Shown: one piece after another, positions 3,501-4,041 of the stretch
How positions within the stretch are numbered: the stretch's first letter is position 1
Layout of the letters: each line of letters starts with the position of its first letter
Origin: a virus
Virus record (IMG/VR): IMGVR_UViG_3300043775_001747
Location: 1-20,731 of that record
Reading direction: 5' to 3' (one strand)
DNA length: 20,731 nucleotides
Position numbers and translations under genes: made by a program
Notes under the pieces: model-generated
What the model saw: only the letters and a program-made list of their open reading frames with translations
Database searches by the model: none
What the model was told of the DNA's origin: nothing

Positions 3501-3530
3501 ATTAAACAATACACATTTAAAAAGTGACAA
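3501..3530 (-). promoter_or_regulatory. Predicted sigma70-type promoter for the left operon
   Basis: Read on the minus strand, a -35 TTGTCA (3525-3530) is followed after 18 bases by a -10 TTTAAT (3501-3506). The predicted start is near 3494, just before palindrome copy 5 and the first gene of the operon. Confidence 0.6.
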
Positions 3531-3637
3531 ACAGGTGGAGGGGATGCAGTCAAGCATCCACCTCGCACCCAATTCTATCCTTGATATATGGCCAACATGC
3601 TCCACGAACCCTTCCCTAGTCGGGCGAGTGAGCAGCT

Positions 3638-3699
3638 GCATATGGAGCAGCTATGCGGTGAAGGGCTGGGGGTGTCTCACCCAGCCTGATGGCTTCACC
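3638..3699. other. Adjacent hairpins, compound stem-loop
   Basis: GCATA/TATGC (3638-3642, 3652-3656) abuts a nested hairpin: outer stem GGTGAAG/CTTCACC (3657-3663, 3693-3699) and inner stem GGCTGGG/CCCAGCC (3664-3670, 3680-3686). No T-run follows on either strand, so it is not a simple terminator. Confidence 0.65.
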
Positions 3700-3734
3700 A
3701 TGCTCACCCTGATCCCAAGGTGGCGAGAGCCGGG

Positions 3735-3752
3735 TTGAGTCATGTGACTCAA
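3735..3752. repeat. Palindrome copy 6 (18 bp)
   Basis: TTGAGTCA-TG-TGACTCAA, in the gene-less control region, followed seven bases later by a GGCCGC hairpin. Confidence 0.95.
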
Positions 3753-3758
3753 GAGGCG

Positions 3759-3774
3759 GGCCGCTCTTGCGGCC
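3759..3774. other. GGCCGC hairpin
   Basis: A perfect six-base-pair stem GGCCGC-TCTT-GCGGCC, seven bases after palindrome copy 6. No T-tract follows it. Confidence 0.6.
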
Positions 3775-3883
3775 TACCCCTACCCGCGTTCGTCGCGTGC
3801 ATGTCTGTGTGGGCACGACCAATTATCTTAGGCCGCTTACCCCACACCGCAGGACTTTTTCTTCTAAGGGGATTTCCCGTAAC

Positions 3884-3921
3884 CCCGGCACGCTCGCCGG
3901 GCGTGGAGTGTCAACCCACGC
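3884..3921. other. Two back-to-back hairpins
   Basis: CCCGGC-6-GCCGGG (3884-3889, 3896-3901) shares its last base with GCGTGG-9-CCACGC (3901-3906, 3916-3921). Together with the hairpins to the left this suggests a structured RNA. Confidence 0.55.
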
Positions 3922-3952
3922 ACCTAACGGCAGCTCACATATGAACGATGAT

Positions 3953-3970
3953 TTGAGTCATGTGACTCAA
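3953..3970. repeat. Palindrome copy 7 (18 bp)
   Basis: TTGAGTCA-TG-TGACTCAA, same spacer as copy 6. It lies about 65 bases downstream of the predicted start from the leftward promoter at 4042-4070. Confidence 0.95.
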
Positions 3971-4041
3971 GAGATACCACAGATGGACTAGGCATGGCCG
4001 CCTTTAAGGCCAACAATTTAGTTTCTGAATATCCAATTAAT

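Follow-up and report, generated by a model that had tools for sequence, protein, structure and literature searches.

In cluster K mycobacteriophages, the ESAS are 17-bp imperfect inverted repeats with a variable spacer, positioned just upstream of 13-bp start-associated repeats (Pope 2011, PMC3203893). They occur only in the non-structural half and have a subgroup-specific consensus, and the authors argue for a DNA-binding protein (PMC3203893). A 2025 survey states that the role of ESAS/SAS still needs verification (PMC12699233). The stoperators of cluster A are dispersed, phage-specific repressor sites. They are 13-bp, asymmetric and intergenic, some are placed at promoters, and their consensus co-varies with the phage group (PMC6550527).

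Here we describe dispersed dyads in an uncultured phage, record IMGVR_UViG_3300043775_001747, analysed over its 20,731 nucleotides (the window). The record is a 20.7 kb phage with its structural genes (terminase, portal, capsid) on the rightward strand from ~7 kb, while the genes in 1-6.6 kb run leftward. We call the leftward arm early, judging from the layout. Genes 5295-4720 and 3444-2962 are separated by 1.27 kb of non-coding sequence, which contains positions 3530-3975 (the block). Our best explanation, held with moderate confidence, is that the block belongs to a region of an uncultured tailed phage that controls its early genes, in which a protein acting on the dyads controls the early arm and a folded leftward RNA is made from the block.

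A dyad family in the leftward arm

The dyad TTGAGTC-N4/6-GACTCAA was found in 10 exact copies, compared with 0 in shuffled sequences, and in two near-copies with one mismatch each, giving 12 copies (Table 1). All 12 are in the leftward early arm and the rest of the window has none. No TTGAGTC dyads were found in a 31 kb record of the same phage that covers the rightward arm and is 99.99% identical to the window over the shared 13.5 kb. Elsewhere, the exact dyad was present in 37 stretches in viral contigs, as single copies except in a same-phage record. The palindromes at 3735-3752 and 3953-3970, which the original prediction had counted as RNA structure, are members of this 12-copy family, which that prediction did not include. 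A dispersed family of DNA sites explains them better.

Table 1. Features of the early arm in window coordinates
Feature	Positions	Strand	Context or basis
Near-copy dyad, 1 mismatch	6753..6770		upstream of early gene 6608-5967
Tandem dyads (5406-5423 and 5453-5470)	5406..5470		upstream of early gene 5295-4720
Intrinsic terminator of early gene 5295-4720	4676..4701	-	
Dyad (N6)	4603..4622		past terminator of early gene 5295-4720
AT-rich segment with TAGGCA repeats at 4191, 4212, 4253, 4382 (reversed) and 4423	4190..4430		
Dyad (N6)	4120..4139		49 nt before the -35 box of the 4070 promoter
Sigma-70-type promoter TTGACA-17-TATGGT, extended TG	4042..4070	-	promoter scan
Dyad TTGAGTC-N4-GACTCAA	3953..3970		first-gene dyad position; -10 box 71 nt upstream
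GC-rich non-coding block with strong folding, candidate small RNA or leader	3530..3975	-	fold z and codon tests
Dyad TTGAGTC-N4-GACTCAA	3735..3752		inside the block
Terminator-like hairpin at the 3' end of the block, then TGTTTGTCACTTTTT	3533..3566	-	fold, about -26 kcal/mol
Dyad TTGAGTC-N6-GACTCAA	3465..3484		immediately before the RBS of gene 3444-2962
Dyad (N4)	3234..3251		within gene 3444-2962; sole copy inside a called gene
Near-copy dyad, 1 mismatch	2797..2816		one base 5' of the ATG of gene 2795-2409
Dyad (N4)	1989..2006		immediately before the RBS of gene 1968-1747
Dyad (N4)	415..432		upstream of the AAA ATPase gene starting at 373

Other short sequences accompany the dyads. The sequence GGAATAGTAGTTAGGTGNTTG occurs three times near dyads of the window, on the minus strand at about 4575, 5504 and 5563, and a similar stretch, AGTAGTTAGG, follows a dyad in a relative (G019). 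Two dyads of another type, TTAAC-N2-GTTAA, are positioned by the TAGGCA cluster at about 4151 and 4521.

GANTC is the CcrM methylation motif. Each exact dyad holds two GANTC, and the ten exact dyads account for 20 of the 51 sites in the window. Outside the dyads the motif is scarce, with 31 sites where base composition predicts about 74, and the shortage is greater in a relative binned to Alphaproteobacteria (7 versus 62 expected). A host with CcrM-type methylation is possible. The dyads of other phages are without GANTC.

Dyads in related phages

About fifteen related contigs have dyads, many with an arm sequence of their own. The relatives that the terminase led to have TTGTTAA-N3/4/5-TTAACAA dyads in the corresponding arm, with 14 copies in G018, 8 in G012, 6 in L018 and 4 in G019. 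A contig binned to an Alphaproteobacteria MAG carries eight copies of CGGTTAG-N5/6-CTAACCG, and a terminase-alignment scan of genome contigs gave one relative. Contigs found through the small zinc-ribbon protein (2412-2200) showed the arms GTACAAC, TTCACCA, TTAACA, CCTTACA, GTTAGT and GCGTTAG, and the terminase of several of them belongs to another family. Control sequences generated with a second-order Markov model yielded at most 2 copies per dyad family. We found no dispersed dyads in MEP301, Hodr, VA-RY-3, BcepC6B and Mwe-JY08. The late arm of G018 (L066) has eight CCGGCGT-N2-ACGCCGG repeats at 4749-5286, mostly with 66-nt spacing, which are perhaps a repeated protein segment.

The dyads are associated with translation starts. 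In 16 contigs, 47 of 108 dyads were followed within 60 nt by a called gene start, compared with 10.2 expected, as counted with a simple gene caller that missed small genes. The typical order is dyad, AAGGAG-type RBS and ATG. In the window, only 3 of the 12 dyads are this close to a called start, and the dyad at 415 is 41 nt before its gene, which the window end cuts. We observed a recurrent layout which begins with a dyad, a promoter, early gene 1, a terminator and a second dyad. It continues with an AT-rich non-coding region, often with short repeats, then a promoter, a dyad, the first operon gene and more dyad-bearing genes. The distance from the -10 box to the first-gene dyad was 48-64 nt in six related contigs. 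The first dyads of several phages are 3-49 nt upstream of the -35 box and so outside that transcript.

The position of dyads immediately before ribosome-binding sites would also suit hairpins in the mRNA, either read by an RNA-binding translational regulator or protecting or processing the mRNA. Some phages have dyad spacers that differ in length by 1-2 nt (4 and 6 nt in the window), as hairpin loops allow. Such variation is unusual for a rigid dimer site and counts against a DNA-bound dimer. Both near-copies in the window also retain a G-U pair on the transcribed strand. However, when the imperfect dyads of all phages were considered, the mismatches showed no G-U preference on the mRNA strand (8 G-U, 9 A-C and 18 other). 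Since the mismatches are not biased to RNA pairing and several first dyads are outside the transcript, we favour a DNA-binding protein and consider mRNA hairpins rather unlikely. The dyads are probably binding sites of a phage DNA-binding protein, in the manner of ESAS or stoperators.

Early gene 1 (5295-4720) is flanked by dyads in many relatives and is duplicated in this phage, where the leftward neighbours 4720-5295 and 5967-6608 are paralogues with 42% identity. Nothing in Pfam, PHROGs or annotated phages matched the paralogues. For early gene 1, a sequence search of solved structures gave nothing and the structure model was unusable (mean pLDDT 43). That its product binds the dyads is a guess only. 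Our regulator search in the early proteins of G018 gave weak matches only and none was assigned. Between the two paralogous genes, two strong leftward terminators are positioned close together (5595-5713), which suggests a further small transcription unit.

The folded block downstream of the early promoter

The promoter scan recovered the leftward promoter at 4042-4070 that had been proposed before, and relatives have a promoter at the equivalent position. The hairpins named in the original prediction are all present in the sequence as well. These are the nested stem 3657-3699 (GGTGAAG..GGCTGGG..CCCAGCC..CTTCACC), the hairpin GGCCGC-TCTT-GCGGCC at 3760-3775, the stems CCCGGC (3885-3902) and CGTGG (3904-3922), and the two palindromes described above.

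When 3530-3975 was folded, the minus strand had an MFE of -207.6 kcal/mol and a z of -6.3, with 0 of 100 shuffles as good, and the plus strand had a z of -3.9. Deletion of both palindromes left z at -5.0 (minus) and -2.5 (plus). The earlier statement that the structure is far beyond what a spacer would have is thus borne out, also without the palindromes. The folding excess is real and chiefly on the leftward strand. Among the sampled 446-nt tiles of the window, the most structured relative to shuffles was 3400-3845 on the minus strand (z -6.4). We also folded the syntenic non-coding region in each of ten related contigs and obtained z from -0.1 to -2.1 in nine. The tenth, G018 (z -5.7), has long inverted repeats upstream of the promoter.

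Hairpins of this kind could act in the DNA, within a replication origin. The block adjoins the AT-rich segment with TAGGCA repeats, and 4190-4430 is a possible set of iterons or replication origin. In relatives, this position is taken by other short repeats such as TGTTCC or TTACAAAAGTTATG, and the long inverted repeats of G018 are also found there. However, the excess is biased to the transcribed strand and the block, which lies past the promoter, is not within the repeat cluster. We consider it improbable that the hairpins of the block act as DNA.

The original prediction had stated that this stretch contains no gene, and the codon tests agree. Codon usage gave no coding potential in any frame over ~3450-4700. 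The frameshift-tolerant codon test found no gene relic in the block, with a z of -1.3 compared with 5.6 to 37 for neighbouring genes. A protein-coding gene or pseudogene was rejected, as the codon tests give it no support. A search for tRNA and tmRNA found none, and the two halves of the block, compared for duplication, were dissimilar.

The block could instead have decayed from one or two small genes, each formerly headed by a dyad, in which case the hairpins would be incidental. Its GC of about 0.6 is coding-like in an otherwise AT-rich region, and the distances between dyads, 218 and 270 nt, are like the lengths of small early genes. Moreover, L018 and G011 have no gene between two dyads where G012 has one. 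This origin is nevertheless doubtful in view of the codon score given above, the dissimilarity of the block to early proteins of relatives and the strand bias of the folding excess.

We prefer to read the block as a transcribed, structured RNA. The -10 box ends at 4042 and is followed after 71 nt by the dyad 3970-3953, and the block follows both. With this spacing, the block occupies the slot after the early promoter and dyad where relatives carry the first gene. At its 3' end, the minus-strand stem 3566-3533 is followed by TGTTTGTCACTTTTT, so the earlier statement that the region lacks the T-runs of terminators was wrong. Our terminator scan misses this hairpin, probably because of bulges in the stem, and the hairpin may end a leader transcript. 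The block had no match to Rfam covariance models at gathering or relaxed thresholds, and no homologues were found in phages, plasmids and viral contigs. The sole exact 20-mer match, an isolated 21-bp match in an unrelated contig, was discarded. The suggestion that the block is a structured RNA or leader keeps the strand-biased folding, the promoter, the lack of coding content and the terminator-like hairpin on its side, but loses the palindromes, which are better read as DNA sites. Judged by how and on which strand the block folds, and by where it lies, it is a plausible candidate for a leftward structured leader or small RNA.

These elements can be combined into one scheme. Leftward transcription would start at the 4070-4042 promoter. 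One phage-encoded dimeric protein, which we infer together with its binding, would occupy about twelve dyads across the early arm and set early-arm expression at promoters and gene starts, where a dyad would serve as an operator, stoperator or roadblock. The GC-rich block, between and after the two dyads, would give a strongly folded RNA, either a leader or a small RNA, whose transcription stops at least partly at hairpin 3566-3533.

Comparison with known systems

The firm result is the dispersed dyad system, while the structured RNA is a good candidate. The block resembles the phage structured leaders and small RNAs in Rfam in that it is non-coding, strongly folded and downstream of a promoter. 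It differs from them in having no Rfam match or found homologue and in being a candidate transcript, and it gives a defined target for transcript detection.

A cultured distant relative with dispersed dyads exists. Rhizobium phage RHph_TM3_14A (MN988472) has a related terminase (34% identity) and a similar early-arm layout, and carries 18 copies of GTTACC-N5/6-GGTAAC. Of these, 6 are start-associated compared with 1.9 expected. Unlike the dyads of the window, they are in both arms and mostly inside genes.

We tentatively propose that widespread uncultured phages with at least two terminase types share start-associated dyads whose sequences have turned over almost completely, which would imply a fast co-evolving DNA-binding regulator, and that the phage described here has in addition a new non-coding RNA in the first-gene slot. 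The arrangement is of the same kind as that of the cluster K repeats but is found with other terminases. Its many independent arm sequences are natural replicates for studying the function and the reader protein.

The dyads share with ESAS/SAS the dispersed inverted repeats by translation starts, the variable spacer, the restriction to the non-structural part and the group-dependent consensus. However, the arms are 6-8 bp here instead of 17-bp imperfect repeats, the 13-bp SAS box (GGGATAGGAGCCC) is missing and an ordinary AAGGAG-type RBS follows. The phages and hosts are different, the sequence turnover is far greater and copies are also present upstream of promoters. Judged by these sequences, we would not file the dyads as members of ESAS/SAS. 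Like the stoperators of cluster A, the dyads are dispersed and phage-specific, with some at the early promoter. The stoperators, however, are asymmetric, have one orientation and are bound by a known repressor, whereas the dyads are symmetric and candidate sites only. By analogy, the dyads would thus work most like ESAS and stoperators, yet they fail the defining sequence features of both.
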